Assembly (NCBI GenBank): GCA_902599315.1
Contig: CACKEY010000001.1
Coordinates: forward strand, 423,328 to 487,327
Reading direction: 5' to 3'
Length of the DNA stretch: 64,000 nucleotides
Origin: an uncultured SAR86 cluster bacterium
Lineage (GTDB): Bacteria > Pseudomonadota > Gammaproteobacteria > Magnimaribacterales > D2472
Shown: one piece after another, positions 25,696 through 48,193 of the stretch
Position numbering within the stretch: the stretch's first letter is position 1
How the letters are laid out: every line of letters starts with the position of its first letter
Translations under genes and position numbers: made by a program
Notes under the pieces: generated by a model
Database searches by the model: none
Seen by the model: only the letters and a program-made list of their open reading frames with translations
Told to the model about the DNA's origin: nothing

Positions 25696-26475
25696 ATGAA
25701 AATTGCAGTTGTAAGTGGAGGCTTTGATCCAGTTCATTCTGGTCATATCGCATATTTAAGTTCGGCATCAAAAATTGCTGATATTTTAGTTGTTTGTCTT
25801 AATAGCGATTTATGGTTAGAAAAAAAGAAGGGCCAATATTTTTTGCCTTTTGAAGAAAGAAAAATAATTCTTGAAAACTTGTCTATGGTTTCTCGGGTGA
25901 TTGATTTCGATGACGACGATAAGGGATCGGCAACCAATGGGTTAAAAAAAGTAATTGAGCTGTATCCGGATGACGAAATTATTTTTTGTAATGGGGGCGA
26001 CAGAAATAAATCTAATATCCCAGAAATGGATATTAAAGGGATTAGCTTTTCCTTTAGTGTAGGCGGTGATCATAAAAAAAATTCAAGTAGTTGGATTCTG
26101 AAACAATGGTCTTATCCATTTACTGAGAGGCTATGGGGTGATTTTTATGACTTATTTGAAGATAGTTTTGTAAAAGTAAAAGAACTAATTGTTAACCCTT
26201 ATCAAGGTATGAGCTTTCAGCGCCACTTTAAAAGAAGCGAGTTATGGTTTGTTTCACATGGTAAATGTGAGGTTAACTATAGCAATAAAGATCCAAACAA
26301 AATTAAAAAAATTATTTTACAAAAAGGTGACAGATTTGATGTTCCAGTTACTTCATGGCACCAAATTACGAACCCTTTTGAAGATGAATGTAGAATTATA
26401 GAAATTCAGTACGGTCAAAGTACCAATGAAGATGATATTGAAAGATTGTCATATTATAAAGACGGTAGTAATTAG
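25696..26475 (+). CDS. Cytidylyltransferase-like domain fused to a mannose-6-phosphate-isomerase-like cupin
   Basis: The first 135 or so residues are a nucleotidyltransferase of the glycerol-3-phosphate cytidylyltransferase / RfaE-C family, with GGFDPVHSGHIAYL holding the HxGH motif and a KNSSS end motif. From about residue 145, ERLWGDFYDLFEDS, the FQRHFKRSELW metal-site region and VPVTSWHQITNP match the type II phosphomannose-isomerase cupin found at the C-terminus of ManC/AlgA. The parts lie in one frame with no break. Such a protein could activate a polyol or heptose phosphate, with the cupin isomerising or binding the sugar; the real substrate is unknown. It lies between pgsA and tRNA-Cys. 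Confidence 0.8.
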   Translation: MKIAVVSGGFDPVHSGHIAYLSSASKIADILVVCLNSDLWLEKKKGQYFLPFEERKIILENLSMVSRVIDFDDDDKGSATNGLKKVIELYPDDEIIFCNGGDRNKSNIPEMDIKGISFSFSVGGDHKKNSSSWILKQWSYPFTERLWGDFYDLFEDSFVKVKELIVNPYQGMSFQRHFKRSELWFVSHGKCEVNYSNKDPNKIKKIILQKGDRFDVPVTSWHQITNPFEDECRIIEIQYGQSTNEDDIERLSYYKDGSN

Positions 26476-28867: not shown

Positions 28868-29251
28868 ATGTTAAATGATTTTCAAAATAAATTTCCTAAA
28901 TTTATAATTTCTGGATTAATTAATACTACTTTGAATATCTTAAGCATGTCATTACTGATCTATTTTGAAGTTTATTATCTATTCGCTTCAGGAATAGGTT
29001 TTATTGTTGGTGCATTTTCTGGATATGCAATTAATTTTTTTTGGACTTTCAAAGAAAATACCCTATTTATGAAAAAATTTTATAAATACTTCATAATTCA
29101 ACTAATGAACTTAACTTTTACAATAGCGCTGGTATTTTTAATAACAGAGTTTTTAAATTTAATGCCCATACTTGGACAACTAATTGCAATTATATTCACT
29201 ACCTTAATTAATTTTTATCTAAGCTCAAAATTTGTTTTTACAAAATCATGA
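28868..29251 (+). CDS. GtrA-family membrane protein
   Basis: A 127-residue protein with four predicted membrane helices. It has the GtrA-like pattern KFIISGLINTTLN, a GFIVGAFSGYAINFFWTF turn and a final NFYLSSKFVF. GtrA proteins are proposed to flip polyprenyl-phosphate-linked glucose for O-antigen or teichoic acid decoration. A matching GT2 (36813-37511) and large polytopic proteins (30895, 37545) occur nearby. It overlaps the next gene by 4 nt. Confidence 0.8.
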   Translation: MLNDFQNKFPKFIISGLINTTLNILSMSLLIYFEVYYLFASGIGFIVGAFSGYAINFFWTFKENTLFMKKFYKYFIIQLMNLTFTIALVFLITEFLNLMPILGQLIAIIFTTLINFYLSSKFVFTKS

Positions 29252-30291
29252 AAAAATTAAATCTTGTAGAAAACGGTAAGTTTAGGCTAGAGAATGAAAA
29301 GATGCCAAAATTAAAAAAGGATTCATCAATCATAAAGCTAAGTCATGTTGGAGTCTGTTCATCAGATATAAAAAGATCTTTTGGAAATGGAGCATATTTT
29401 TATCCTTTAGTAATGGGTCATGAAGCTATGGGTTTTGTTCATCAATCAAATGGGAATTTTAAACAAGGTGATAAAGTTGTAATTTTTCCTTTAAAACCTT
29501 GTTTTAAATGTGCTAGTTGTAAAGAAAAGAATTTTCAAACTTGCAGCTCCTACAGCTATTACGGATCAAGAGAGGATGGAGCATATCAACAATTTTTAAC
29601 AGTTAATAATTGGAACTTACTTAAATTGCCTAAGTCAGTCTCAAATGCTGATGCTGCTCTCGTTGAGCCCACTGCTGTAATGGTGCATGTAAAAAACATC
29701 TTGGTTGACTTGGCAGGAAGCATAAGATCCTTAAAAAATTTGCATGGCGCTATAATAGGAGGCGGCTTTCTTACAATGATTTTATCAAAAATATTGACAG
29801 AAATTGGAATGCCTCAACCTGACGTTTTTGATAGAAATAAATTCAAAATAAATTTTGCAAAGAGTAAAAATATAAATTCAATGCATAGTAATGAGCTTCT
29901 GAAGGATAAAAAGCTTAACAGCTATGATTGGGTTGTAGAGGCTTCTGGTGATCCAAACGCATTTCAAACTAGTATTGAAATAGTAAAATCGGGAGGAAAA
30001 TTAGTATGGATGAGCAATGTTCAAGGCGATGTAAAAATTTCTGCCTCTGCCATATCTTCAATTTTGAGAAAGGAAATTAGTATATCCGGATCATGGAATT
30101 CTTCATATCAACCATCTGGTTTAAGTGATTGGAAGGAAACCGTTAATTTAATTAAAAAAGGGTTATCTCCTTCCCAATTTGTTACTCACTTTGTTAGTCT
30201 TGAAGAACTTCCTGATATTTTGCAGAAGTTTCAAAATCATAAAAGTCGTAAAGAAAATTTTAAAGCTATAAAAGCAATGCTTGAACATTGA
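29248..30291 (+). CDS. Zinc-dependent medium-chain alcohol dehydrogenase
   Basis: A 347-residue MDR enzyme. The catalytic zinc ligands are in VGVCSSD and MGHEA. The structural zinc site is CFKCASCKEKNFQTC, and a Rossmann-type glycine stretch IIGGGFLTM follows. Sorbitol-, galactitol-1-phosphate- and ribitol-phosphate-type dehydrogenases belong here. With the second MDR (32655) and the epimerase-like genes it suggests interconversion of a polyol phosphate and a keto sugar. The substrate is not determined. Confidence 0.82.
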   Translation: MKKLNLVENGKFRLENEKMPKLKKDSSIIKLSHVGVCSSDIKRSFGNGAYFYPLVMGHEAMGFVHQSNGNFKQGDKVVIFPLKPCFKCASCKEKNFQTCSSYSYYGSREDGAYQQFLTVNNWNLLKLPKSVSNADAALVEPTAVMVHVKNILVDLAGSIRSLKNLHGAIIGGGFLTMILSKILTEIGMPQPDVFDRNKFKINFAKSKNINSMHSNELLKDKKLNSYDWVVEASGDPNAFQTSIEIVKSGGKLVWMSNVQGDVKISASAISSILRKEISISGSWNSSYQPSGLSDWKETVNLIKKGLSPSQFVTHFVSLEELPDILQKFQNHKSRKENFKAIKAMLEH

Positions 30292-30295
30292 TTAG

Positions 30296-30898
30296 ATGGA
30301 TAACATTTTAGTTCAACATAGAGTCAATACTATCAATGATTTGAAAAGTATTCCTTCGCATTTTGGAATTGAAGTTGATATTAGGGAGCAAAATGGAGAT
30401 CTAATTTGTGCTCATGATCCAGTTTCAAAAGGAGAGTTATTTAAAGATTTTTTATTTCAATTTAATCATAAGTTCATCATTGCCAATATTAAAGAAGAAG
30501 GAATAGAGAAGGATGTAATTGCCTGTATTGAAGAAAATAAAATAGAGAATTATTTTTTATTAGATGTAACTTTTCCATATCTTGTCAAACTTTTTAAAGA
30601 GGGAATAAATAAGATTGCATTGAGAGTCTCTGATTTTGAGCAATTCGATGAGGATATCGTAAAGAAATTAAACATTGAATGGATCTGGCTAGACGCATTT
30701 GAACAATTTCCTACTAAGGAGTTAAAAAAGATTAAATTTTGCTCTAAATATTTCAACCTTAAAGTATGTTTAGTCTCTCCTGAACTTCATATGAGCAGGT
30801 CAAAATTGGATTCAACAAGAATACTTGATCAAATCAAGGCTTCAAACTATAGTTTTGACGCAATTTGTACAAAGAACTTAACAGAGTGGCAATTATGA
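30296..30898 (+). CDS. Glycerophosphodiester phosphodiesterase-like protein
   Basis: A 200-residue protein with the GDPD active-site layout: His8-Arg9, Glu26-x-Asp28 in GIEVDIRE, and His40-Asp41 in CAHDP. These correspond to the HR, E-x-D and HD motifs of the family. It is shorter than typical GDPDs (about 250) and has no signal peptide, so it acts in the cytoplasm. It may hydrolyse a phosphodiester or work as a related lyase in polyol-phosphate metabolism. It ends in an ATGA overlap with the following membrane protein. Confidence 0.7.
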   Translation: MDNILVQHRVNTINDLKSIPSHFGIEVDIREQNGDLICAHDPVSKGELFKDFLFQFNHKFIIANIKEEGIEKDVIACIEENKIENYFLLDVTFPYLVKLFKEGINKIALRVSDFEQFDEDIVKKLNIEWIWLDAFEQFPTKELKKIKFCSKYFNLKVCLVSPELHMSRSKLDSTRILDQIKASNYSFDAICTKNLTEWQL

Positions 30899-32658
30899 CA
30901 TTTTTAAAAAATCACTTTAGTTTATTTTCCTCATTAAGCTTTTTAATATATTTAACTTTTTTTCAATACCCTTTTTTAAAATATGAGCTTGGAGTTCTAA
31001 CGTCCTATATAAATAACTTTAATGCATTGAATGAAATAAGCTTTTGGAACGGTTTCTTTGGAGAGTCGTTCTTTACTTCAAGTGATTTTAGTCCGTTAAA
31101 ACTAAATTTAATTGCTTGGTCACTTTTTATTCTTTCAAAAGCATTCTCTCAATCGTTAATTTTTTCATTTGCACCTATAATATTTTCAACTTGCTCATTT
31201 TATTTTGCCTTAAAAATTTTTGAACTATATAAATTACAGAAATCATGGTCTGTCCTATTAGCATTCCTTGGTATGACAAGCATTGCGTCAATGCCGCTTT
31301 TTGAAACTTTAGCAAGCATTATTTCATTTAAATTTTCCTTTCAATCATCTAGCGGAGTTTATTTCGATCTTTTAACCTCGTTTTCGTCATCTATGGTTTT
31401 AGCTGGATTTTTGGGTCTTCTTTACCTAACACTTAAAGCCGAGCTTTTGAAATCAAGCCATAAAAATTTGCTTCCAACTTTATGGGCGTTATCAGTATTT
31501 ATTCATCCCTCACTTTTTATTTTTGGTTTCTCATTTATTTTATTAATTAACTTTATAGATTTAAGAAAAATGATTCTTAATAAGAAGCCAATTCAGATAA
31601 AAAATTTTCTTATAATCAATTTTTTACCATTAGTACTTGTACTTCCTTACATTATTTATAACGTAAGCTTTTTTGGCTCTAATTCAGCACAATTACTAAA
31701 CGCTGAACAAGATGAGATATTATTTTTTATCAAAGGAATCTTGCTTTATTTTATAATACCTTTTGGTTTGATGTTGATTGCAAATCGTCTTTACAGAGTA
31801 GATCCATATGAATCACTAGTTCGTTTTTGGCCAATACTTTTGATAGCTTTAATAGAAGTATTTTTAAGAGTAACTTATTTATTTAATCTTCTTCCAATTA
31901 ACGATGAGGTTTTTTTAAGCAGAGTTGCAGTATATTTTTTACATTTCTTTTACTACGTTCCATTTTTAAGTGTTGTAACAAGAAAGTTTACTTATCTACC
32001 CGACATACATAATGAAGATAATTCTTTAAAAAAGTTGCGAAAGACTTGCAATTATTTTTTTATCAACCTTGGTAATCCAATATCATTTCTAATAATCGTA
32101 ATTATTTCTTTAACAACATATAGCTCAATAAATCACGATGAATACCTATTAGTTGACAATAGAGCAAAAGAGTTAAAAAAAGATGTACAACAAATTCTTC
32201 TTGATGAGGTATTAAAAGGAAAAAAAATTCAATTTCTTTCAATGGATGAAAAAATTATCGCCGGTTACTTATTTCCAAATAACTCTGATTTAAACAACTT
32301 TCTGAAATTTGGCTCATCTTCTCAAAACAGAGAATTTGATTTTTTAATTAATACTTATCAAAGAGAAAGCATTCAGCCAGTTTCTAAATTAAGCCTTAAC
32401 ATTCTCGAGGAAAATTTTGACGAAAACTCCTTTATAGATAATAAAAGAAATTTAGCCCTAGCATTGTGGTTGAAATATAATAATGTTTACTATGATATTA
32501 ATGGTGTTTTTATGAATGATGCAGACTTTTTAAAGGAAGGCGAATTATTTTTTATCAGCAACTATCTTGTTTCTAAAAACTCTCCGAATCTTTTGCAAAG
32601 TTCCGATGACATTAATTCAAAAAAACTCGGTAATTATTTAATTACTTATTCTAAATGA
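30895..32658 (+). CDS. Large polytopic membrane protein of unknown function
   Basis: A 587-residue protein with about ten or more hydrophobic helices over the first 430 residues and a soluble C-terminal part of about 150 residues. I take the ATG at 30895, which overlaps the previous stop as ATGA; an upstream in-frame ATG at 30865 is less likely. The layout resembles GT-C glycosyltransferases or O-antigen-modifying membrane enzymes, but I cannot name a family. It is embedded between the GDPD-like and dehydrogenase genes with 4-nt overlaps on both sides, so it belongs to the same operon. Confidence 0.6.
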   Translation: MTFLKNHFSLFSSLSFLIYLTFFQYPFLKYELGVLTSYINNFNALNEISFWNGFFGESFFTSSDFSPLKLNLIAWSLFILSKAFSQSLIFSFAPIIFSTCSFYFALKIFELYKLQKSWSVLLAFLGMTSIASMPLFETLASIISFKFSFQSSSGVYFDLLTSFSSSMVLAGFLGLLYLTLKAELLKSSHKNLLPTLWALSVFIHPSLFIFGFSFILLINFIDLRKMILNKKPIQIKNFLIINFLPLVLVLPYIIYNVSFFGSNSAQLLNAEQDEILFFIKGILLYFIIPFGLMLIANRLYRVDPYESLVRFWPILLIALIEVFLRVTYLFNLLPINDEVFLSRVAVYFLHFFYYVPFLSVVTRKFTYLPDIHNEDNSLKKLRKTCNYFFINLGNPISFLIIVIISLTTYSSINHDEYLLVDNRAKELKKDVQQILLDEVLKGKKIQFLSMDEKIIAGYLFPNNSDLNNFLKFGSSSQNREFDFLINTYQRESIQPVSKLSLNILEENFDENSFIDNKRNLALALWLKYNNVYYDINGVFMNDADFLKEGELFFISNYLVSKNSPNLLQSSDDINSKKLGNYLITYSK

Positions 32659-33680
32659 TCACATCAAAATTAAGTCTAGATAATCAACTATATATTGAGG
32701 AAGCTGCTAAGCCAGAAATAACTCAAGATCAATTGCTAATCAAGGTTTTAAGTTGCGCAATATGTGGATCAGATCTAAAAATTACTAAGGCTGGCAATCA
32801 AAGAATTAAAGAAGATAGAACCATTGGACATGAGATTTCTGGAGAGGTTGTAGAAGTTGGCAAAAATATACTTAATTTTAAGATTGGAGATACTGTTTCA
32901 ATTGGGGCTGATCTTCCTTGTTTAAATTGTAGTTTTTGTGATGCAGGTCAAGTTAATTTATGTAGTACTAATTTAGCTGTGGGGTATCAATTTGATGGAG
33001 GGCTTTCACAATACATGATCGTAAATGAATATATTTTAAAAGAAGGACCAATAGCTAAGTTTCAAAACATAAGTTCAGATTTGGCATGTCTTGCAGAGCC
33101 ACTTGCGTGTGCAATTAATGGTGTAAGTAAATCAATGGCATGTTTTACAGTTGGTATGCCTAAATCTGCACTGATATTTGGTGGGGGACCAATGGGGATT
33201 TTTCTTTCTGAATATCTTAATTTTAAGGGAGTTAAAGAAATTTCTATCATCGAGCAGAATCAGGAAAGAGTAAATTTTATATCGTCTAATACTAATTTTA
33301 ATGTTCACAAATCTAGTGAAAATCTTAAAAGAAAATTTGACCTAATCTTTACAGCTTGTCCAGCCAGAGAAACTCACTCGCTCTCATTGAAGCTAGTAAA
33401 TACTGCTGGCGTTATTAACTTCTTTGGTGGCTTGCCTGCTGGCTCAAATCCGTTAGAATTAGACTCAAATTCCATTCATTATTCAGAAATTGTTTTAATG
33501 GGAACCCACGGCTCAAATCCATTGCAACACAAGGAAGCTTTAGAGTTAATAGAATCAAATAAATTAGATTTACAATACATGATTACTCATAAATTTAGCT
33601 TAGATAATATCCAAGATGCCTTTGATGTTGCCAGATCTGGAGTTGGGCAAAAAATTATAATTAATCCAAATGAAAAATAA
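32655..33680 (+). CDS. Zinc-dependent medium-chain dehydrogenase, sorbitol-dehydrogenase-like
   Basis: A 341-residue MDR enzyme with the catalytic zinc residues in CAICGSD and IGHEI. The structural zinc cysteines lie in CLNCSFCDAGQVNLC, and ALIFGGGPMGIFLS is the nucleotide-binding loop. It resembles sorbitol/threonine-dehydrogenase-type enzymes acting on polyols. It is the second MDR of the module and only distantly similar to the one at 29248. It overlaps the following epimerase-like gene by 11 nt. Confidence 0.82.
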   Translation: MITSKLSLDNQLYIEEAAKPEITQDQLLIKVLSCAICGSDLKITKAGNQRIKEDRTIGHEISGEVVEVGKNILNFKIGDTVSIGADLPCLNCSFCDAGQVNLCSTNLAVGYQFDGGLSQYMIVNEYILKEGPIAKFQNISSDLACLAEPLACAINGVSKSMACFTVGMPKSALIFGGGPMGIFLSEYLNFKGVKEISIIEQNQERVNFISSNTNFNVHKSSENLKRKFDLIFTACPARETHSLSLKLVNTAGVINFFGGLPAGSNPLELDSNSIHYSEIVLMGTHGSNPLQHKEALELIESNKLDLQYMITHKFSLDNIQDAFDVARSGVGQKIIINPNEK

Positions 33681-34371
33681 GAATTCTGATCACGTAAAAA
33701 TTTCTGCCTCACTCATGTGTGTGAATTGGTTAAAAGCAGAAGAGGAGATTCAAATTCTCAATGAAGAAAATATAGATTTACTTCATATAGATGTAATTGA
33801 CGGCCGATATGCACCAGACTTTACAATGGGTACTAGCATAATAAATTGTTTCAGAGATATTTTTAAACGGCCTTTTGATTATCATCTTATGGTGGAGGAA
33901 CCTAGCAGAATTTTTGAAACATTTGATATACGAGATGGAGATAGTTTTGCAATTCATCAAGAGTGTTGTCGAAATCTGCATAGAGACTTAATTACATTAA
34001 GACAAATGGGAGCTAAAGTTGGAGTAGCCCTTTCACCCGCAACTCCAATATCTACGCTTGACTATATTATTGAAGATTTAGATCATGTTCTATTAATGAC
34101 GGTTAATCCTGGATTCAAGGGCCAGGCCCTTGTGCCACAAGCAGTATCGAAAATTAAAGATCTTAAAGAGTATATTGATAACAGAGGGTTGGATGTAGCA
34201 ATCCATGTTGATGGAAATGTAAGCATTGAAAACATACCCACTATGGTCTCAAATGGTGGAGACACGTTGATTTCAGGATCTTCAGGAATGTTTATGAAAG
34301 AAATGAGGTTAAAGGAATCAATAAAAATTTTTAGAGAGGCTATCTCAAGAGGTATAAATGCAAGATCATAA
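33670..34371 (+). CDS. Ribulose-phosphate 3-epimerase family protein
   Basis: A 233-residue TIM barrel with the Rpe layout: ISASLMCVNW at strand one, HIDVIDGRYAPDFTMG with the metal-binding His and Asp, YHLMVEEPSR, LLMTVNPGFKGQ and the VDGNVSIENIP/ISGSSGMF phosphate-binding end. It is more divergent than a housekeeping Rpe, which usually has MDVMDG.FVPN. A relative of allulose-6-phosphate epimerase acting on a special sugar phosphate is likely. It sits between an MDR dehydrogenase and a TIM-barrel isomerase, with overlaps on both sides. Confidence 0.82.
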   Translation: MKNKNSDHVKISASLMCVNWLKAEEEIQILNEENIDLLHIDVIDGRYAPDFTMGTSIINCFRDIFKRPFDYHLMVEEPSRIFETFDIRDGDSFAIHQECCRNLHRDLITLRQMGAKVGVALSPATPISTLDYIIEDLDHVLLMTVNPGFKGQALVPQAVSKIKDLKEYIDNRGLDVAIHVDGNVSIENIPTMVSNGGDTLISGSSGMFMKEMRLKESIKIFREAISRGINARS

Positions 34372-35269
34372 TTTTGAATTAAGTGTTAACACTGGTTTTT
34401 TAGTTAATAGATATACTGATCCAGATCAGTGGGTAAAATTAGTGGCAAATTTTATTAATATTAACAAAGTCCAATTTACAGCTGATCTTATTAACCCATC
34501 CCTACCAGAAAGCTTGATCAAGAAAAAAGTTCATGAGACAAAGACTTGTTTAGATGATAATGGCGTAGAAGTAACAAGTTCATTTACCGGAGCCTTTACT
34601 AGATTGAATAACTTAACACATCCAGATCAAGACTTTAGAGAATATTATGTTGATTGGTTTAAAAAATTTGCAGATATCACAGCCGATCTTGATAGCAAAT
34701 ATCTTGGTAGTCATTTTGCAATTTTAACCCAGCAAGATTTAGAAGATTCCGATCGTAGAAAATTTTTAAGAAAGCAAGCTATTAAATCTTGGCATGAAAT
34801 TGCCTCTCATGCTAAAAACAGGGGGATTGAAGAGATTTTTTGGGAGCCAATGTCAATTTCAAGGGAGTTTGGTGAAACTATAGATGAAGCTATTGATCTA
34901 AACAATGAATTAAACAAAAATTCTCCATTACCTTTTTCAATGTGTTTAGATGTTGATCATGGAGATTTAGAAAGCCCTAATCCAGAAGATATTGACCCAT
35001 ATGCATGGATTAATCAATGCAAGGATGGGTTTGATATGATTCATCTAAAGCAGAGCTATTCAAATAAGGGTGGTCATTGGCCTTTTATAGCTGAGCATAA
35101 TAAAAAAGGTAATATTGTCCCCAGTAAGATTCTTGATGCTATTAGGAAAACTTCACCACGCAATGTCCAGCTAGTCCTTGAGCTTTCATTTAAAGAGAGG
35201 CAGCCTGCGGATAGATTAGCAGCCGAACATGTCAAAGAGTCAGTAGATTTTTGGCAAAATAGTTTGTAA
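34358..35269 (+). CDS. Xylose-isomerase-like TIM-barrel sugar isomerase/epimerase
   Basis: A 303-residue protein with the AP-endonuclease-2/xylose-isomerase fold pattern. Metal-ligand candidates are Glu in IFWEPMS, Asp and His in CLDVDHGD, His in IHLKQS and Glu in VLELSF. Tetrulose- and keto-sugar-phosphate epimerases such as EryC fall in this superfamily, which suits the neighbouring Rpe-like and MDR genes. The exact substrate is unknown. It overlaps the Rpe-like gene by 14 nt. Confidence 0.72.
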   Translation: MQDHNFELSVNTGFLVNRYTDPDQWVKLVANFININKVQFTADLINPSLPESLIKKKVHETKTCLDDNGVEVTSSFTGAFTRLNNLTHPDQDFREYYVDWFKKFADITADLDSKYLGSHFAILTQQDLEDSDRRKFLRKQAIKSWHEIASHAKNRGIEEIFWEPMSISREFGETIDEAIDLNNELNKNSPLPFSMCLDVDHGDLESPNPEDIDPYAWINQCKDGFDMIHLKQSYSNKGGHWPFIAEHNKKGNIVPSKILDAIRKTSPRNVQLVLELSFKERQPADRLAAEHVKESVDFWQNSL

Positions 35270-35272
35270 TCT

Positions 35273-36820
35273 GTGGATGTAATTGTCCCAATGGCGGGCC
35301 ATTCTCGTCGTTTTAAAGAAGCCGGATATAACTTACCCAAGTTCCTGTTAAATTGCGGTGAAAAGAAGATGATTGAGTATGTCTTAGACATGTTTGCCGA
35401 ATCAGACACTTTTCATTTTATTTTAAATAGTGATTTTCAGAAAGATTTAGATTTGCATAATTTTTTAGAAACATTATCACCAAATACTTTTATTTATTAT
35501 ATTGAGCCACATGAACTAGGCCCTACATTTACAATAATGCAAGCTGATTTAAAGATAAACCAAGACGCAGAAATTATAATTTCATATTGTGATTTTACTG
35601 TTTCTTGGGATTATGAGTTATTTAAACGCCAAATTCTTGGGTTCGATGCTGGAGCTCCATATTTCACTGGCTTCCAGGCTGCTTCTCTAGGGCATACAAA
35701 GTATGCATATATGATGCATGAAGATTTTAATATGGTCGAATTAAGGGAGAAAGAATCTTTTACAGATAACAGATTAAGTGAGCCTGCATCTACAGGCATA
35801 TATTATTTTAAGTCATTGTCTTATTTTCATGTCCTTGCGGACTCCTTATTCTCAGGCAAGAAAGAATTTCCCAATAATGAATCTTACACAAGTCTTTTGC
35901 TAAATGAAGCTGTTAAATTATCTGGAAGGGTACTTCTCTTTAAAGTAGATCAATTTATTTGTTTGGGCACTCCAGAAGACTATGATCAATTTAATTATTG
36001 GCATAGTTATTTTAAAAATAATAAAAAGCAGGAGAAAAATGATAAAGCTTTTTCAGAAATCTCAATGATTCCAATGGCTGGAGAGGGGAATCGTTTTAAA
36101 AATTATGGTTACAGGACCTCAAAACCATCAATTCAGATTGGCGAAGAATCTTTAATAAATAAATGCATCTCTTCATTACCTCCATCAAATAGTAATATAT
36201 ATCTTCTTAAGAAAAATGATTATCTCAATCATTCATTTATTAGGGATTTAAAAGCAATAACGCCATTGAAAAAAAGTGAATTCATCCCTGTAGAAGAAAC
36301 AACTTCTGGTCAAGCGGCAACATGCATGCTAGCAGAACAATTACTAGAAAAAGATAAGTCTTTGATGATTAGTAGCTGTGATTATGAGTTAGTTTACGAT
36401 CTAAAAAAATTAGAGAATTTAAAAAAGGTGCATAACCCAGATGTGATACTTTTTACATTTAAATTAAAATCTTTGCCTGTAGGTTCATATGAAAATTTTG
36501 CATATTGTGAAACTAAGCTTGATAGTGTTTTAGGTATTGTTGAAAAAAAATGTATTTCAGATACTCCTCAGTTAGATTCCATGGTAACGGGGACTTTTTG
36601 GTATAAAGATGCCAAGTTATTCACTGAATCAGCTCAGCAGTTAATAAAAGATGATATTCGGGTCAATAATGAGCATTATGTAGCCACCAGCATAAATTTT
36701 TTGATAGAAAAAGGTTATAAGGTAATGACTTTTGAGGTAGAGCAATGGATTTCATTTGGCGATCCCACAGAATTGAATTTGTATTATTTCTGGGAAGAAT
36801 TCTTTGCTGAATTTATTTAG
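35273..36820 (+). CDS. Tandem sugar-nucleotidyltransferase (two fused NTP-transferase domains)
   Basis: A 515-residue protein made of two similar halves. The first begins VIVPMAGHSRRFKEAGY with PKFLL, and the second, near residue 265, begins SMIPMAGEGNRFKNYGY with SKPSIQI. Each half keeps a catalytic-aspartate motif (SYCDF and SSCDY) and a C-terminal QxxxxGTPEDY or QWISFGDPTEL segment. This is an internal duplication of a nucleotide-sugar pyrophosphorylase. The start is a GTG 3 nt after the upstream stop. It could activate the product of the preceding polyol/pentose genes. Its 3' end overlaps the convergent GT2 by 8 nt. Confidence 0.8.
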   Translation: MDVIVPMAGHSRRFKEAGYNLPKFLLNCGEKKMIEYVLDMFAESDTFHFILNSDFQKDLDLHNFLETLSPNTFIYYIEPHELGPTFTIMQADLKINQDAEIIISYCDFTVSWDYELFKRQILGFDAGAPYFTGFQAASLGHTKYAYMMHEDFNMVELREKESFTDNRLSEPASTGIYYFKSLSYFHVLADSLFSGKKEFPNNESYTSLLLNEAVKLSGRVLLFKVDQFICLGTPEDYDQFNYWHSYFKNNKKQEKNDKAFSEISMIPMAGEGNRFKNYGYRTSKPSIQIGEESLINKCISSLPPSNSNIYLLKKNDYLNHSFIRDLKAITPLKKSEFIPVEETTSGQAATCMLAEQLLEKDKSLMISSCDYELVYDLKKLENLKKVHNPDVILFTFKLKSLPVGSYENFAYCETKLDSVLGIVEKKCISDTPQLDSMVTGTFWYKDAKLFTESAQQLIKDDIRVNNEHYVATSINFLIEKGYKVMTFEVEQWISFGDPTELNLYYFWEEFFAEFI

Positions 36821-37511
36821 AGATTCTTTTTTTTAATTGGAAGGAGAATTTTATAGTTCTTTGAATTAAAGCAAGTTTTGATTTTAAACCCGTGTTCCAC
36901 GATGAATTTCCATAAAATCTTTCAGGAAAAAAGACTGTCAATCTTTTTATGCTTAGATTATTTTTTTTAGCCATTACATAGGAATAAAGGTCTAAAGAAA
37001 AATCTTCAGGCGGATCACTCCAAGAAAGAAAAAATTTCTTTGAAAATATTGTTGGTTGAGCATTTATCTCCCAAAGCTTTGTTCTTAAAATAATACTTTC
37101 AAATATCCCCATTCCGATAGAAAAAATATTATCAGCTATTGGTCTTCCTACCCTAGATCCTTTCACAAAGATTTTGTCCGAGTCCATCAATTTAAAACCA
37201 TTTAGTACATCTGCAGGGTCAGTTTGAAGATCAGCATGCGTCCAACCAATATATTGTCCTTTAGCTTTTGAAAGCCCATATAGAATGCCCCCTCCATAGC
37301 CTTGATTTTTTTCAAGTCGATACGTTTTTAGGAGTTGATCTAAATCTTTTATTGTTTTTAATATTTTATCAGAGCCATCAGTTGAGCCATTATCAATTAA
37401 AATAACTTCAACACCATTGGCGCAAAGCTCTTTTTTGCAGATATCAATTAATTTCAAAAGGTTTCCACTCTCGTTATAACAGGGGATTACAATTGAAAAA
37501 TTATTAGTCAT
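36813..37511 (-). CDS. Glycosyltransferase family 2, polyprenyl-phosphate glycosyltransferase-like
   Basis: A 232-residue GT-A enzyme with IVIPCYNESGNL, LIDNGSTDGS, GYGGGILYGLSKAKG and a WTHADLQTDP catalytic motif. The pattern is that of dolichol/undecaprenyl-phosphate sugar transferases such as GtrB and DPM1. It lacks the C-terminal membrane helices of GtrB and ends in a basic tail. It is a lone minus-strand gene, convergent with the tandem nucleotidyltransferase and divergent from the membrane protein at 37545, and could load a lipid carrier for a GtrA/GT-C pair. Confidence 0.85.
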   Translation of the reverse strand: MTNNFSIVIPCYNESGNLLKLIDICKKELCANGVEVILIDNGSTDGSDKILKTIKDLDQLLKTYRLEKNQGYGGGILYGLSKAKGQYIGWTHADLQTDPADVLNGFKLMDSDKIFVKGSRVGRPIADNIFSIGMGIFESIILRTKLWEINAQPTIFSKKFFLSWSDPPEDFSLDLYSYVMAKKNNLSIKRLTVFFPERFYGNSSWNTGLKSKLALIQRTIKFSFQLKKRISK

Positions 37512-42564: not shown

Positions 42565-43749
42565 ATGGAATACAAATTGGCAGCTTCATCATGGGGTAAA
42601 GAAGAGGTGCAGGCCATGCATCGAATAATTGATACTGGAATGCATTCTATGGGTTCCACGGTAAAAGAATTTGAAGAAAAATTTGCTTCCTATGTTGGAA
42701 CAAAACATGCGGTCATGGTAAATTCTGGTTCATCAGCAAATCTCATTGGCTTCCATGCCTTGAGATTACTTAAATTTAAGAATGTTGCCCATAAAATTAA
42801 AGTAGCTGTTCCAGCAGTCAGTTGGAGCACTACGTATTTTCCTCTTCAGCAACTTGGCTTTCAATTAGTTTTTGTAGATGTCGATTTAGAAAATTTCAAT
42901 ATGGATTTAGACATGTTAGACAAAGTTGCTAGGGAAAACGATTTAGATTTTGTTTGTGGAGTTAATTTATTAGGAAATCCAATGGATTTCGATAGACTTA
43001 CATCCATTTGTAATGAGAATAATATAATTTTTGTTGAAGATAATTGTGAATCTCTTGGAGCTGAATATAATGGAAAAAAAACTGGTGGTTTTGGTTTATT
43101 CGGTTCATTTAGTTTTTTCTTTTCTCATCACCTAGTTACTATGGAAGGAGGAATGGTTTGTACTAATGATGCTGACCTTGCAAACTATGCTCGATCTTTA
43201 AGAGCTCATGGGTGGCTACGAGAGGTAGATGAGGACTCTGATTTACATGGTTTACTCGAAGGAGTTTCAGAATTTGAGAAAAAATTTAGATTTGTTGTTC
43301 CAGGCTATAACTTAAGACCAATTGAAATGGAGGCCGCCATTGGTTTAGAGCAATTAAAAAAAGCCAACTCTTTTTTTGAAACCAGAAGGTCTAACTTTAG
43401 TAAAATAAAAAAAATTCTTTCTCAATATAATGACTTTCATATTCAAGAGGCATATGAAATGGCTACATGGTTTGGATTTGGCATTCTTTTAAAAAATAAA
43501 CTTGAGGGAAGGAGAAGCGACTTAGTCAAATGTTTTGAAAAATACAATATCGAAGCTCGGCCATTGCTTGCCGGAAATTTCTTAAAAAATCCAGTTATTG
43601 AACATCTTGATTATATCGTTCCTTATGCATGTAAAAATTCAGATTACATTGACGAAAATGGGATAATGTTAGGAAACTACAATAGAGATATGACCAATGA
43701 ACTCCAGCTTCTCGAAGATTGTTTAAGAGAATTTTTTCAAACTTTATGA
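42565..43749 (+). CDS. DegT/DnrJ/EryC1-family sugar 3-dehydratase, ColD/RfbH-like
   Basis: A 394-residue PLP/PMP-fold protein. It has VNSGSSANLIG and VEDNCESLGAEYNGKKTGG, and the cofactor-lysine position is replaced by histidine in FSHHLVTMEGG. That exchange, with WFGFGILLK and IEARPLLAGNFLKNP at the C-terminus, marks C-3 dehydratases (RfbH and ColD) instead of aminotransferases. The iron-sulfur cysteines of RfbH are absent between residues 215 and 250, which makes it ColD-like. I start at the ATG 2 nt after the upstream stop. A 3-deoxy or 3,6-dideoxy sugar is the likely product. It is convergent with the next gene, overlapping by 13 nt. Confidence 0.82.
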   Translation: MEYKLAASSWGKEEVQAMHRIIDTGMHSMGSTVKEFEEKFASYVGTKHAVMVNSGSSANLIGFHALRLLKFKNVAHKIKVAVPAVSWSTTYFPLQQLGFQLVFVDVDLENFNMDLDMLDKVARENDLDFVCGVNLLGNPMDFDRLTSICNENNIIFVEDNCESLGAEYNGKKTGGFGLFGSFSFFFSHHLVTMEGGMVCTNDADLANYARSLRAHGWLREVDEDSDLHGLLEGVSEFEKKFRFVVPGYNLRPIEMEAAIGLEQLKKANSFFETRRSNFSKIKKILSQYNDFHIQEAYEMATWFGFGILLKNKLEGRRSDLVKCFEKYNIEARPLLAGNFLKNPVIEHLDYIVPYACKNSDYIDENGIMLGNYNRDMTNELQLLEDCLREFFQTL

Positions 43750-44570
43750 CTTTTTAGCCAAAGTTTAATGAATGAATATTGCCTAGTAGTGGCCATTAAT
43801 ATAATTCCTGGTAAATAAAATACTGTCGCTAAAATATTTTTTTCATAAAATATGTATCTAGTCTCAGTTATAAAAGAATGTATAAAGTTCTTAAAACTTC
43901 TTTTTTGTAAAGTTTCAAGAAATTGAAAATCGCTTTTTCCATACCATATCATTCTTTTTAAAATATTTTGTGAAACTTCATCAACATGAATATCAGAGCA
44001 TGCTATTGGACCAATAGTTTCTATAAAGGCATTAAAAAAAATAGTATCGTCACAGCAATCTACTTCTGTATTATAACCAATCTTCCTCGCGTCTTCTGCA
44101 TTAATGATATGAGGAGTTCCAATAACATCACGAGAAATAAAAGTAGGAAATTTATTTTTAAACCTAAAATTTTGGCATTTTTCAAGATATTTTTTGGGAC
44201 ATGGAATTTTTTGAGAAAAGGCAAGTGCTTTAAATTTTGAAGTGACAAGCTGATTTAAAATTTTTGAAATACTATTTGACTCAATTCTATTATCGGGGCC
44301 AAGAAATATTAAATATTCTTTTGAGACTTTTTCTAAGCCTTTAGATCTAGCTTGGCCAATTCCTGTTCCATCATCTTTAATAAGAATTAGTGAGGTATTT
44401 AATTTGTTTTGATAGCTTAAAATTTCTTCAATCTCATTCTCACAACTTGTTACAAAAATTAATTCACCAACACTATATTTATCAGCATTTTTTAGATGAA
44501 AACAAACATCATCAAATGAATCTTTTGAGCAGATTACTAATGAGATATTTCTATTTGAAGGGCGATTCAT
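43737..44570 (-). CDS. Glycosyltransferase family 2
   Basis: A 277-residue GT-A-type protein with ISLVICSKDSFDD at the N-terminus, GIGQARSKGLEKV and a LGPDNRIES motif in place of the usual DDD or DxD, plus VDCCDDTIFF further on. The C-terminal 60 residues hold a hydrophobic segment that may anchor it to the membrane. It is the last gene of a six-gene minus-strand operon (49069 to 43737) and probably transfers one of the sugars made there. Confidence 0.75.
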   Translation of the reverse strand: MNRPSNRNISLVICSKDSFDDVCFHLKNADKYSVGELIFVTSCENEIEEILSYQNKLNTSLILIKDDGTGIGQARSKGLEKVSKEYLIFLGPDNRIESNSISKILNQLVTSKFKALAFSQKIPCPKKYLEKCQNFRFKNKFPTFISRDVIGTPHIINAEDARKIGYNTEVDCCDDTIFFNAFIETIGPIACSDIHVDEVSQNILKRMIWYGKSDFQFLETLQKRSFKNFIHSFITETRYIFYEKNILATVFYLPGIILMATTRQYSFIKLWLKSHKV

Positions 44571-44581
44571 TTAATAAATTT

Positions 44582-45274
44582 CTATGCTAAATTGCCCAAA
44601 AGTGATTTTGAAAGTTTGTAGTTAATTTCTAATTTCTCTATGTCTTCTTTTTCATCTAGATCATTGCTTTGAAAAGTTTTAATGATTATCCAATCCGATA
44701 ATTCATATTCATTTGATTCTTTTTCATCAAACCATGCACTTTTATATATGTAAAATTGACCAGCATCAATATAAGAGAATCCTAAATCTTGCGATCTTAT
44801 ATTTTGTTTATTTGGAAAATTAGCTTTTAAAGCACCATTGTGAATTTTAAATGTCCATTCAACCGGACCATCCAGCTTAGAAATTGACATGAGAAAATTT
44901 TTGGACGACTTGCAAATTTTTGATAATGAATCATCGATAGTCTTTCCATCAATACATATTGAGTGAGAAAAAGTCTGATAGATAAAATCATAATTTTTTA
45001 GGTCCTTTTCATAATGCCATTTCATTAAATCGACAACAGTCGAAAAATCATCACAAAATAAATTACTTCTTTTTAAAATTCTTACTTTTTGATTTTTAAC
45101 TATATCTATTAACTCCTCATCATCGGTAGAAAGAAATATATCTATTTCATGCGAAGCTCTTTGAATATTCCTTATAACCTTATTGATATAGTGATCTCCC
45201 TCTAGATCAAGATGATTCTTATTAACAATTCTTTTACTACCCTTTCTTGCAGGAATAATTGCAGCTATTTTCAT
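44582..45274 (-). CDS. CMP-nonulosonate cytidylyltransferase (PseF/NeuA family)
   Basis: A 230-residue cytidylyltransferase with the CTP-binding IPARKGSKRIVNKN loop. The YIDAGQFYIYKSAWF segment is typical of PseF, the CMP-pseudaminic acid synthetase. It would activate a nine-carbon 2-keto acid made by the NeuB-family enzyme two genes upstream. It overlaps the preceding GT2 by 4 nt. Whether the substrate is pseudaminic, legionaminic or another acid cannot be read. Confidence 0.83.
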   Translation of the reverse strand: MKIAAIIPARKGSKRIVNKNHLDLEGDHYINKVIRNIQRASHEIDIFLSTDDEELIDIVKNQKVRILKRSNLFCDDFSTVVDLMKWHYEKDLKNYDFIYQTFSHSICIDGKTIDDSLSKICKSSKNFLMSISKLDGPVEWTFKIHNGALKANFPNKQNIRSQDLGFSYIDAGQFYIYKSAWFDEKESNEYELSDWIIIKTFQSNDLDEKEDIEKLEINYKLSKSLLGNLA

Positions 45275-45897
45275 TTTCTATGTATCAAAAATTTTATAAG
45301 GTTAATTATTAGACTAAGATTTACAAAAAATGCATTTCCCAGCCTTGTTTCTTTTCTTTGATTTAAATCAATTTGGAAATTACAAACATCATTTTTATGG
45401 ATTTTATCAAATTTAAAGAAATCAATTCCAAATTCAAGAATGTTATTTTCATTATAAAGTTTAATATCCCCACATTTAACTCCACACATTAAATCACGGA
45501 TGCCATACTTGTAATTGAAGTATTTATTAACAATCCTCTCAGATATCCTCTTAATTTTTTCCCTATATCCTATAATTAAATTAAACTTCTCAAACTGAGC
45601 GAGGCAATTTTCAATTGATTTAATACCTATTTCATTATCTCCATCAATGATAAGAAATTTTTGATAATTTTTATTTTTTAATTCGTTAAGGCCTTTTTTA
45701 AGTGTCGCTTGATAACCGATGTCCTTGCAAAAAAGGATATTGACCCCCATCTCTTGTGCAATTTCTGCAGTTCTATCTGATGATTGATTATCTACAACAT
45801 ATATGTTTTCTTTATTTACTTTGCATCCAGTAAGATTATTTATGACATTGGCAATATTTTCTTCTTCATTTCTTGCTGGAACGATAACGCCTAGCAT
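45271..45897 (-). CDS. Glycosyltransferase family 2 (short)
   Basis: A 208-residue GT-A protein with GVIVPARNEEENIANVI, YVVDNQSSDRTAEIA and the IIDGDNEIG catalytic aspartates. RDLMCGVKCG resembles the ...CGFKA... region of polyprenyl-phosphate glycosyltransferases. It overlaps the NeuB-family gene by 7 nt and the cytidylyltransferase by 4 nt, so it belongs to the same operon. It has no membrane anchor beyond a weak hydrophobic C-terminus. Confidence 0.8.
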   Translation of the reverse strand: MLGVIVPARNEEENIANVINNLTGCKVNKENIYVVDNQSSDRTAEIAQEMGVNILFCKDIGYQATLKKGLNELKNKNYQKFLIIDGDNEIGIKSIENCLAQFEKFNLIIGYREKIKRISERIVNKYFNYKYGIRDLMCGVKCGDIKLYNENNILEFGIDFFKFDKIHKNDVCNFQIDLNQRKETRLGNAFFVNLSLIINLIKFLIHRK

Positions 45898-46949
45898 ATA
45901 TCTTCTTTTAAGATACTTTCATTTGCTGATTTATTTTTGGAAAGAGTTTTGCCTATTAATAAATTCTGTTCATATGGATGAAATGAGTTTTCTGGACACG
46001 GTCTAAGAAAATCAAGATCACTCTCTTCTATAACATGCCCTTTTTCTAAGCTTGTTTTACAGACAATTGATCTCCTTTGAACTACGTATGCATTTTGTTC
46101 GTTTTCTTCTACTTTTTTCTTACCATCTCCAAGCGTTTCAAAAACTTCTAAAGAAAGATTCACCATTTCTCTCCATTTTGTTGGATTAAGTGCAAATTTG
46201 TGGTCAGGCCCCTCACGGTCATTATCATCAGTGAAGTGTTTTTCAAAAACTCTCGCTCCTAAAGGTATAGATCCAAGCACTGATCCGTGCCCAAGAGTAT
46301 GATCTGACAAACCTAAAATTACTCCTGGAAATAAATTTGTATACTCTTTTAAAACATTTAAATTTACATATTTATGTTTCTCTGGCTCAATCGTATAGTT
46401 GGTATTACATTGCATGAGAACCACTTGATTTGGATCTAAGCAATTCATTGCTCTTTTAACATCATCAATTGATGATGCGCCTGACGCAATTAGCACTGGC
46501 TTTCCTTTATCAGCAACAAATTTGATGAATTCAGTCCAACTTATATCTCCTGATCCAATTTTATAAAAGCTTAAATATTCATCAACTAGATCGACAGCAT
46601 CATAGTCGTATGGAGATGTTGAAAATTCAATATCTGCTTTTACACACTCTTCTGCTATTTCTTTTGTCCACTCTCTTTTAAAATGATACTGGTCATAAAT
46701 CTCTGAAACAGACTTTTTCCAACTAGATTGATGGGTCTGGAGATTTTCAATTTTTTTAAACTCTACATCATTTACTATTTTATCTGCTAAAAAGTGCTGA
46801 AATTTTGCGCAATCAGCTCCAGCTTCTTTAGCTATCCAAACAAGTTCTTTCGCTCTTGATAGATCTCCATCGTGATTGGCAGCTAAATCAGCAACGAAAT
46901 AGGGCTTTTTGTTTAGGGAAATTTCTCTGTTTCCAAGTTTTAACTTCAT
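45891..46949 (-). CDS. NeuB/PseI-family nonulosonate synthase, divergent subfamily
   Basis: A 352-residue PEP-condensing TIM barrel with a C-terminal SAF (antifreeze-like) domain (about residues 290-352, SLEKGHVIEESDL). Active-site segments are FVADLAANHDGD, AGADCAKFQHF, YKIGSGDIS, LGLSDHT and FEKHFTDD. The usual AEIGxNH is changed to ADLAANH, marking a branch away from standard NeuB and PseI. It would join PEP to a six-carbon amino sugar to give a 2-keto acid. The neighbouring cytidylyltransferase supports this. Confidence 0.85.
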   Translation of the reverse strand: MKLKLGNREISLNKKPYFVADLAANHDGDLSRAKELVWIAKEAGADCAKFQHFLADKIVNDVEFKKIENLQTHQSSWKKSVSEIYDQYHFKREWTKEIAEECVKADIEFSTSPYDYDAVDLVDEYLSFYKIGSGDISWTEFIKFVADKGKPVLIASGASSIDDVKRAMNCLDPNQVVLMQCNTNYTIEPEKHKYVNLNVLKEYTNLFPGVILGLSDHTLGHGSVLGSIPLGARVFEKHFTDDNDREGPDHKFALNPTKWREMVNLSLEVFETLGDGKKKVEENEQNAYVVQRRSIVCKTSLEKGHVIEESDLDFLRPCPENSFHPYEQNLLIGKTLSKNKSANESILKEDIC

Positions 46950-48193
46950 TATTTTTGTTGTCTAAAAACCGGACTTACTAATTGACCCTTGACTTCGTTT
47001 TCTAGATCAAAATATTCCGCATTTAGTTTCAGGACAATATTTTGTATCACATTAAGTGCGAGATCAATGTCTATATCATCATGATCCTCACACATGGCAA
47101 AAAACATGTTGAAAAGCATATTTTCATTTAGAAATTCTTTTTGAATAAAAGTTTTTAATTGAATTGCCATTTTAGCCTCAAATGGACTTAAAACAATTTT
47201 TCCAGGGTACGAAGTTACATTAATTTTATATTTTGGATTTTCAATTTTATTAAGTTCCAGCTTGATTTTATTAAAAAAATTCTTAGTTTTTAAAGTCAAT
47301 GCATCAAAAAAATTATGATCTAAATAGTCAATCATAAAGTCTGCGGCAGCTAACCCGATTGGATCTGAGGCATGAGTAAATGAAAAGAATATTTCTTCAA
47401 AATTATGCATGTAATTCTTCGGGCCAAGAATTGCAGATACCGGAACTCCATTTCCTATTGCTTTTGCATAGCAGACTAAATCAGGGCGAATTCCTGTATA
47501 ACCAATTGCACCCTCCTTATGACAACGAAAGCCTGTCCAACATTCATCAAATATCAACAATGATCCATGTTTGTTACATAAATCTCTTGCAAGTTCAAGG
47601 AACTCCAAGTTAGGCTCATCCCCAATCATTGGCTCAATAATTAAACATGCAACTTTATCTCCACTTGAATGAAACATTTCTTTTAATTTATTGCTGTCGA
47701 AGCCTTCGATTTTTTTGGTTAATGATTTAATAGATTCAGGAACACCGCCAGATCTTGTCGTTGTTCCAATAAACCAATCTTGCCAACCATGATATCCATT
47801 GCATATTACCAGTTCTCTTTTTGTAATGTATCTCGATAACCTTATTGCTGCTGAGGTTACATCTGATCCATTCCTAGCAAATCTTACACTTTCACCAAAA
47901 TTTACAGCTGAGAGCAGTTTTGCAGCAACATCAAATTCAAAATCAGATGGTAAAGAATAAGCTATTCCACTTCTTACCCTCTTAATAATATGATCATTAA
48001 GTGGTTTAAAGTTATATCCTTTTATGACTGGACCTAAGCCCATAGACCAATCAGTATACTCTCCCAAGTTAGTAACAAGTTTTGAGCCATAGGCTTTTTT
48101 TGCAGTAAGAGGTGAAATTCCTTTAGGATACTGATGATGAGCTTTTGAAAAGGTATGACTTTTGTCTGGGATTATATCGCTGTAATGTTTCAT
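46949..48193 (-). CDS. Class III PLP aminotransferase (glutamate-1-semialdehyde-aminomutase-like)
   Basis: A 414-residue fold-type I enzyme with FARNGSDVTSAAIRLSR, NGYHGWQDW, LLIFDECWTGFR and the PLP lysine in CYAKAIGNGVPVSA. These are HemL-family signatures, but it sits in a NeuB/PseF operon. A sugar aminotransferase role replacing PseC or LegC is therefore more likely than haem synthesis. It shares one base with the NeuB-family gene. The true substrate is unknown. Confidence 0.83.
   Translation of the reverse strand: MKHYSDIIPDKSHTFSKAHHQYPKGISPLTAKKAYGSKLVTNLGEYTDWSMGLGPVIKGYNFKPLNDHIIKRVRSGIAYSLPSDFEFDVAAKLLSAVNFGESVRFARNGSDVTSAAIRLSRYITKRELVICNGYHGWQDWFIGTTTRSGGVPESIKSLTKKIEGFDSNKLKEMFHSSGDKVACLIIEPMIGDEPNLEFLELARDLCNKHGSLLIFDECWTGFRCHKEGAIGYTGIRPDLVCYAKAIGNGVPVSAILGPKNYMHNFEEIFFSFTHASDPIGLAAADFMIDYLDHNFFDALTLKTKNFFNKIKLELNKIENPKYKINVTSYPGKIVLSPFEAKMAIQLKTFIQKEFLNENMLFNMFFAMCEDHDDIDIDLALNVIQNIVLKLNAEYFDLENEVKGQLVSPVFRQQK

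Follow-up and report, generated by a model that had tools for sequence, protein, structure and literature searches.

Cassettes with a GDPD-fold protein and two nucleotidyltransferase domains as candidates for ketose activation in bacteria

In this work we analyzed a gene cassette of an uncultured SAR86 cluster bacterium, located in a stretch of 64,000 nucleotides (contig CACKEY010000001.1, positions 423,328 to 487,327), which is called the window below. The core of the cassette is a GDPD-fold protein with two nucleotidyltransferase (NT) domains, usually accompanied by a family 2 glycosyltransferase (GT2), and this core is present in many phyla. The genes around it differ. In the window and one other locus (type B) two Zn-dehydrogenases (ADH1 and ADH2), an Rpe-family epimerase and an EryC homologue replace the kinase, HAD phosphatase and aldolase of the common arrangement (type A). 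To judge from the sequences, both types may lead from ribulose-5-phosphate through a pentulose-1-phosphate to a nucleotide-activated ketose, for example xylulofuranose, for surface glycans; we regard this as possible, somewhat short of an even chance.

The first-pass annotation had read positions 29248-36820 of the window as one tightly packed module that looked built for an unusual polyol- or keto-sugar phosphate. Its gene list and packing hold: all seven open reading frames (ORFs) are open, and the spacings from the small membrane protein GtrA onward, which is part of the same gene run, are -4, +4, -34, -4, -11, -14 and +3 nt, where -34 turns into -4 if the membrane protein MEM1 starts at ATG 30895. 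The idea of a single module is strengthened by the recurrence of the whole cassette in another phylum. Locus L104, a contig of a metagenome-assembled genome (MEWP01000136, Zixibacteria RBG_16_53_22), carries the window's genes in the order ADH1-GT2-GDPD-MEM1-ADH2-Rpe-EryC-NTNT, and the identities to the window proteins, in the same order, are 41%, 48%, 36%, 25%, 44%, 58%, 48% and 46%. The two runs are colinear (ADH1-GDPD-MEM1-ADH2-Rpe-EryC-NTNT) except for GtrA and GT2, the latter lying after ADH1 inside the run in L104 and on the opposite strand at the module end in the window. This colinearity is more than chance.

Since the whole cassette recurs beside the NTs, we rejected the possibility that the dehydrogenases are unrelated catabolic enzymes. 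Independent catabolic genes are also disfavoured by the distribution of the EryC homologue, for which 1 of 150 searched relatives matched, namely the window's own genome; the EryC query alone found nothing in the genome-contig and viral-contig collections by a pattern search, which finds close relatives only. Among 80 related loci, homologues of Rpe, EryC and MEM1 were detected in one (L104), and NT similarity revealed no further type B locus in 369 genomes of the window's class or in 132 genomes of the L104 phylum. In the window and L104 stretches, tblastn detected no type A kinase, HAD or aldolase, and type A kinase and aldolase from the same genus gave nothing in the window's genome at E 1e-3. 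The genome L023, of the same genus, has type A in comparable surroundings: its methyltransferase and UDP-sugar dehydrogenase share 67% and 44% identity with their counterparts flanking the window module, which looks like an exchange of precursor genes at a single locus. ADH-like matches of 25-29% in L097 and L099, loci with type A genes, were taken as unrelated.

The two dehydrogenases are different proteins, as first noted, with 28% identity to each other. ADH1 has the Zn-ligand pattern, its best NCBIfam match is galactitol-1-phosphate 5-dehydrogenase (NF007642, E 8.5e-50, below cut-off), and it matches PDB 4a2c at E 1.4e-39; ADH2 matches Tdh (E 8.7e-48, below cut-off). Rpe scores 191 bits with TIGR01163, under the cut-off of 212.6, and this is still its nearest characterised family; the genome has another Rpe-like gene at a different place, 31% identical to it. 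The xylose-isomerase-like TIM barrel is related in sequence to EryC, with 47% identity to a protein of the S. meliloti ery-type locus L032, and the depositors of its PDB match 4k3z named that protein D-erythrulose 4-phosphate dehydrogenase. The available part of the source (PMC11508834) describes EryC as a tetrulose-4-phosphate racemase. Genes eryA, eryB, eryH and eryI are not beside the window homologue, whose neighbours are Rpe, ADH2 and the NT.

The GDPD-like protein had no Pfam or NCBIfam match, PF03009 did not match it at E 1e-3 and, searched against the window's genome at E<=1, gave only another locus, on contig C3. Its profile had only chance-level matches to PDB sequences, and therefore a fold search was needed. 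The predicted structure (pLDDT 94.1) has solved GDPDs as its best Foldseek matches, at the top of the list, which assigns it to the GDPD TIM-barrel fold; the comparison with 1o1z (VIA) gave Z 17.1 and rmsd 2.5 over 180 aligned residues. In the family alignment (33 of 70 listed proteins plus the window protein) H8, R9, N11, E26, D28, H40 and D41 are identical in 34/34 rows, and hhalign relates the family to canonical GDPDs over the N-terminal 40 columns with E 0.003. Here the H, R, E-x-D, H pattern of GDPDs is present and aligned with the canonical proteins; we take these to be the catalytic residues. Fold and site residues thus unite the module protein with GDPDs, from which it differs in its length of about 200 aa, in escaping PF03009 and, by motif reading, in an invariant Asn64 where three canonical GDPDs have Glu/Asp before Lys.

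The tandem NT consists of an N half (residues 1-257 approximately) and a C half (258-515 approximately). Site residues G..R, K and D occur in each half, and in 24/24 aligned proteins (22 of 55 listed, the window and the plasmid locus L119) neither half has lost them; position 11 is Gly in 22 proteins and Ser in the other 2. A phylogeny of the halves, suggested at first pass as a check and made with 53 of 127 halves picked by locus, separates N and C halves into two deep clades (support 100/100), each of which contains types A and B both; the window and L104 are sisters in the two clades (100/99). As both clades are separate and both halves keep their site residues, two different and apparently active NTs have been retained side by side. 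Membership of the TarI/IspD family was ruled out for the window NT, which matches PF12804 and PF00483 and has no PF01128 match at E 1e-3, so the analogy to TarJ/TarI drawn at first pass does not extend to the family.

How widely is this core distributed? The alignment of the GDPD-like family found 268 relatives in named genomes, and the best 80, kept as loci, include Yersinia, Erwinia, Pseudomonas, Prochlorococcus, Paenibacillus, Flavobacteriaceae and Omnitrophota. Loci were counted by tblastn; ORF picking missed the GDPD frame in some of them. NT was present in 71 of the 80, GT2 in 72, GtrA in 48, the membrane half of the kinase in 72, its kinase domain in 71, HAD in 70 and aldolase in 62; no NT was detected in L035, L074, L088 and L114. 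For the 51 loci with both 10-kb flanks the numbers are NT 47, GT2 46, kinase domain 47, HAD 49 and aldolase 43, and the complete type A set (NT, GT2, GDPD, kinase, HAD, aldolase) is present in 41. The typical order is NTNT-GtrA-GT2-GDPD-kinase-HAD-aldolase, with an aldolase of class II and no conserved reductase. In Y. proxima the kinase domain is nearest to phosphoribulokinase (NF005655, E 1.2e-62, 212 bits, cut-off 236), and the HAD protein to ribulose-1,5-bisphosphate 5-phosphatase (NF053830, E 2.2e-49, 168 bits, cut-off 330). The kinase is a polytopic membrane part, with a weak ALG3 match (E 0.001), fused to the phosphoribulokinase domain. This fusion (L050 10564-12639 and homologues) is widespread in type A loci.

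Type A was found on two plasmids among 5426 genomes searched. On E. coli plasmid p5-S1-CAM-01-A (L119, 6022-14984) it lies between IS26 copies, one of them a pseudogene, and this DNA recurs on a second E. coli plasmid over the 3750 bases searched. It is present as well in relatives of the window organism and on Hirschia and Azospirillum plasmids, the Hirschia stretch being without an annotated NT. A Scandinavium stretch gave only 4 short ABC-transporter matches, and phages searched with the GDPD-like protein gave no match at all.

More distant GDPD relatives share about 28-33% identity with the Y. proxima protein (L029 is 29% identical to the window protein). Those at about 30% that lie on plasmids beside a HAD phosphatase constitute type C. 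Profile search found at least two NT domains in 6 of 7 distant loci (L120, L121 and L123, the last of which carries no annotation; L167, a tandem plus a weaker third; two each in L168 and in L029, which does not come from a plasmid) and one in L122. The proteins of L120 13299-14825, L167 9396-10880 and L168 7238-7999 and 9343-10077 are annotated as glycosyltransferase family 2 and match NT profiles; these labels are likely misannotation. On plasmids of the Rhizobium tumorigenes group (L120 5550-15550, L121 3549-13538) GDPD-HAD-tandem NT stands directly behind an erythritol-type operon of kinase, G3P-dehydrogenase-like, EryC, triose-phosphate isomerase and RpiB genes. Viral contigs L117 and L118 had a weak GDPD match, and no NT was found in them. 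The locus L057 (Candidatus Magnetocorallium, 1-20573) has NT and GT2 with its GDPD gene, and no kinase, HAD or aldolase was found there; radical-SAM genes adjoin it, perhaps a further precursor type.

The GDPD-like family was present in 2 of 25 Yersinia genomes. In one of the two, genome G661 (L171 7777-10499, minus strand), NT-GDPD-HAD-NT lies between manC/manB/wzm/wzt and gmd/rmd-like genes, the flanking names having been read from the start of each protein. This O-antigen-type frame resembles the one described for Y. enterocolitica O:10, whose polysaccharide is a D-rhamnan with L-xylulose side chains and for whose cluster the available part of the description names no xylulose-making gene (PMC11380512).

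The following route could connect these genes. In type B, Rpe would convert ribulose-5-phosphate to xylulose-5-phosphate, ADH1 would reduce it at C2 to a pentitol-5-phosphate, and ADH2 would oxidise C4, the carbon next to the phosphate, to give a pentulose-1-phosphate, all without ATP. The EryC homologue would then set C3 by epimerisation, the type of reaction known for EryC on tetrulose phosphate; as 3-tetrulose-4-phosphate is a ketose-1-phosphate, this would be chemically EryC's own reaction. In type A, a compound of this class would be formed by way of the kinase, the HAD phosphatase and the class II aldolase. The families of the kinase and HAD, together with the haloarchaeal route in which the ribulose-1,5-bisphosphate phosphatase makes ribulose-1-phosphate that a FucA-type aldolase then cleaves (PMC9700705, in the part available), point to a ketose-1-phosphate there.

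In a ketose donor the activation is at C2, the anomeric carbon. One NT may charge the 1-phosphate to a nucleoside diphosphate (NDP)-1-ketose; on the GDPD-like enzyme the vicinal anomeric 2-OH would attack, so that nucleoside monophosphate is released and the phosphate shifts to C2. The resulting 2-phosphate would be charged by the second NT. This shift between the two NTs is the boldest step that we infer. The core would then be a phosphate-relocating donor synthase (NDP-1-ketose to 1,2-cyclic phosphate, to anomeric 2-phosphate, to NDP-2-ketose) and a general means of ketofuranose activation in bacteria with interchangeable precursor modules: kinase, phosphatase and aldolase in type A, two dehydrogenases and two epimerases in type B, and a HAD phosphatase in type C. 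In this general form we find it rather doubtful. Finally GT2, perhaps with GtrA and MEM1, may transfer the ketofuranose, such as xylulose, to a cell-surface glycan. Xylulose is reported from bacterial polysaccharides, O-antigens and capsules included (PMC8707391, partial source).

Several points weigh against the proposed route. None of the module members has a known product or activity, the family matches of ADH1, ADH2, Rpe, kinase and HAD all fall under curated cut-offs, and EryC is known on a four-carbon substrate. GDPDs normally hydrolyse, and we know of no precedent for opening of a cyclic phosphate towards C2. The GT2 is without predicted membrane segments, and the fold of MEM1 is not established (pLDDT 37). 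Type B is known from two loci, one of them a metagenome-assembled contig; E. coli chromosomes gave no DNA-level match to the module, a search that diverged copies would escape; and carriage by a strain with a proven xylulose glycan was not demonstrated here. The O:10 gene list, in the part of the source available, is without such an NT or GDPD gene (PMC11380512).

The hydrolytic habit of the fold also suggests another explanation, in which each NT supplies a nucleotide sugar of its own and the GDPD-like protein is a hydrolase that serves to edit or recycle a phosphodiester by-product. The deep split between the paralogous NT halves and the frequency of NT genes in glycan loci would suit it. 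On the other side, GDPD and at least one NT were found together in types A, B and C, small type C modules included, so the link between them looks mechanistic; we consider two separate sugars unlikely. The first-pass annotation favoured an activated alditol: ADH1 and ADH2 would make a pentitol phosphate and the NTs an NDP-pentitol, transferred as polyol phosphate. The nearest family of ADH1 speaks for it, and so does the existence of CDP-glucitol and CDP-ribitol cassettes (PMC10918830, partial source). An alditol end product is nevertheless quite unlikely because type A loci encode homologous GDPD, NT and GT2 proteins without a conserved reductase; moreover, the NT is of a family other than PF01128, and the epimerases beyond the reductase would be idle. 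The part of the earlier reading that stands is a single module that looks made for forming and activating an unusual sugar phosphate; the parts that find no support are the TarI family and the alditol product.

Least probable to us is a four-carbon block, with the EryC homologue making a tetrulose phosphate and the core activating erythrulose or erythritol/threitol. The EryC homology (E 1.9e-84) and the Rhizobium tumorigenes group, with its GDPD-HAD-NT behind the ery-type operon, favour it, but an Rpe homologue adjoins the EryC homologue and the type A enzymes are nearest to five-carbon families.

Known systems resemble the window cassette in part. TarI/TarJ and Bcs1-type CDP-ribitol synthesis likewise places a Zn-dependent medium-chain reductase beside an NT acting on pentulose phosphate; the window NT differs by family and by its two domains, and the window adds epimerases and the GDPD-like protein. 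C. jejuni HS:5 CDP-6-D-glucitol and S. pneumoniae Mnp1/Mnp2 are similar as nucleotide-activated sugar alcohols from ketose phosphate, but according to the part available they use a PF01128 cytidylyltransferase with a PF01370 oxidoreductase, a pair different from that of the window (PMC10918830). Erythritol catabolism (EryABCHI) shares the EryC homologue at 47% identity; the window module has NTs and GT2 instead of EryA/B/H/I. The haloarchaeal non-carboxylating pentose bisphosphate pathway has HAD and aldolase of the type A kind, but is catabolic and, in the available part of its description, without NT, GDPD or glycosyltransferase (PMC9700705). The window shares a GtrA-type protein, consistent with a GtrA-type flippase, with GtrABC-type side-chain modules, but its GT2 has no hydrophobic segment, unlike GtrB-type GT2 with C-terminal membrane segments. 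As a candidate GT-C membrane transferase MEM1 has no Pfam match, its structure model is unusable at that pLDDT, and hhalign found no relation to the type A kinase.

Table 1. Genes of the window cassette.
Feature	Position	Strand	Basis
GtrA/DPMS-type small membrane protein	28868..29251	+	PF04138 E 1.2e-18; hydrophobic segments; 4-nt overlap with ADH1
ADH1, Zn-dependent medium-chain dehydrogenase, polyol-phosphate type	29248..30291	+	PF08240/PF00107
GDPD-fold phosphodiesterase-like protein, module-specific family	30296..30898	+	predicted structure
MEM1, polytopic membrane protein	30865..32658 (ATG 30895 likelier start)	+	hydropathy
ADH2, second Zn-dependent dehydrogenase, Tdh/IolM-like	32655..33680	+	PF08240
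Rpe-family pentulose-phosphate 3-epimerase, dedicated paralogue	33670..34371	+	PF00834 E 1.4e-56
EryC homologue, xylose-isomerase-like TIM barrel	34358..35269	+	PDB 4k3z E 1.9e-84
Tandem nucleotidyltransferase	35273..36820	+	PF12804 in first half, PF00483 in second
GT2 glycosyltransferase of the module	36813..37511	-	PF00535 E 7.4e-27

Elsewhere in the window, one ORF (25696-26475) joins a cytidylyltransferase-like N-terminal part to a mannose-6-phosphate isomerase/cupin C-terminal part, and a minus-strand gene group that includes NeuB and a class III aminotransferase (43737-48193) is perhaps a nonulosonic-acid set.

We found neither this core nor ketose activation described in open-access full texts, most subscription journals lying outside the search. 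We see the cassette as a variant among nucleotide-sugar cassettes, one whose activation chemistry may be new. With varied precursor genes across many phyla, the GDPD and two-NT core offers a concrete, testable candidate for ketose activation; if true, it would account for genes labelled 'uridine kinase', 'HAD hydrolase' and 'PI-PLC/GDPD family', and for NT proteins labelled 'glycosyltransferase family 2'.

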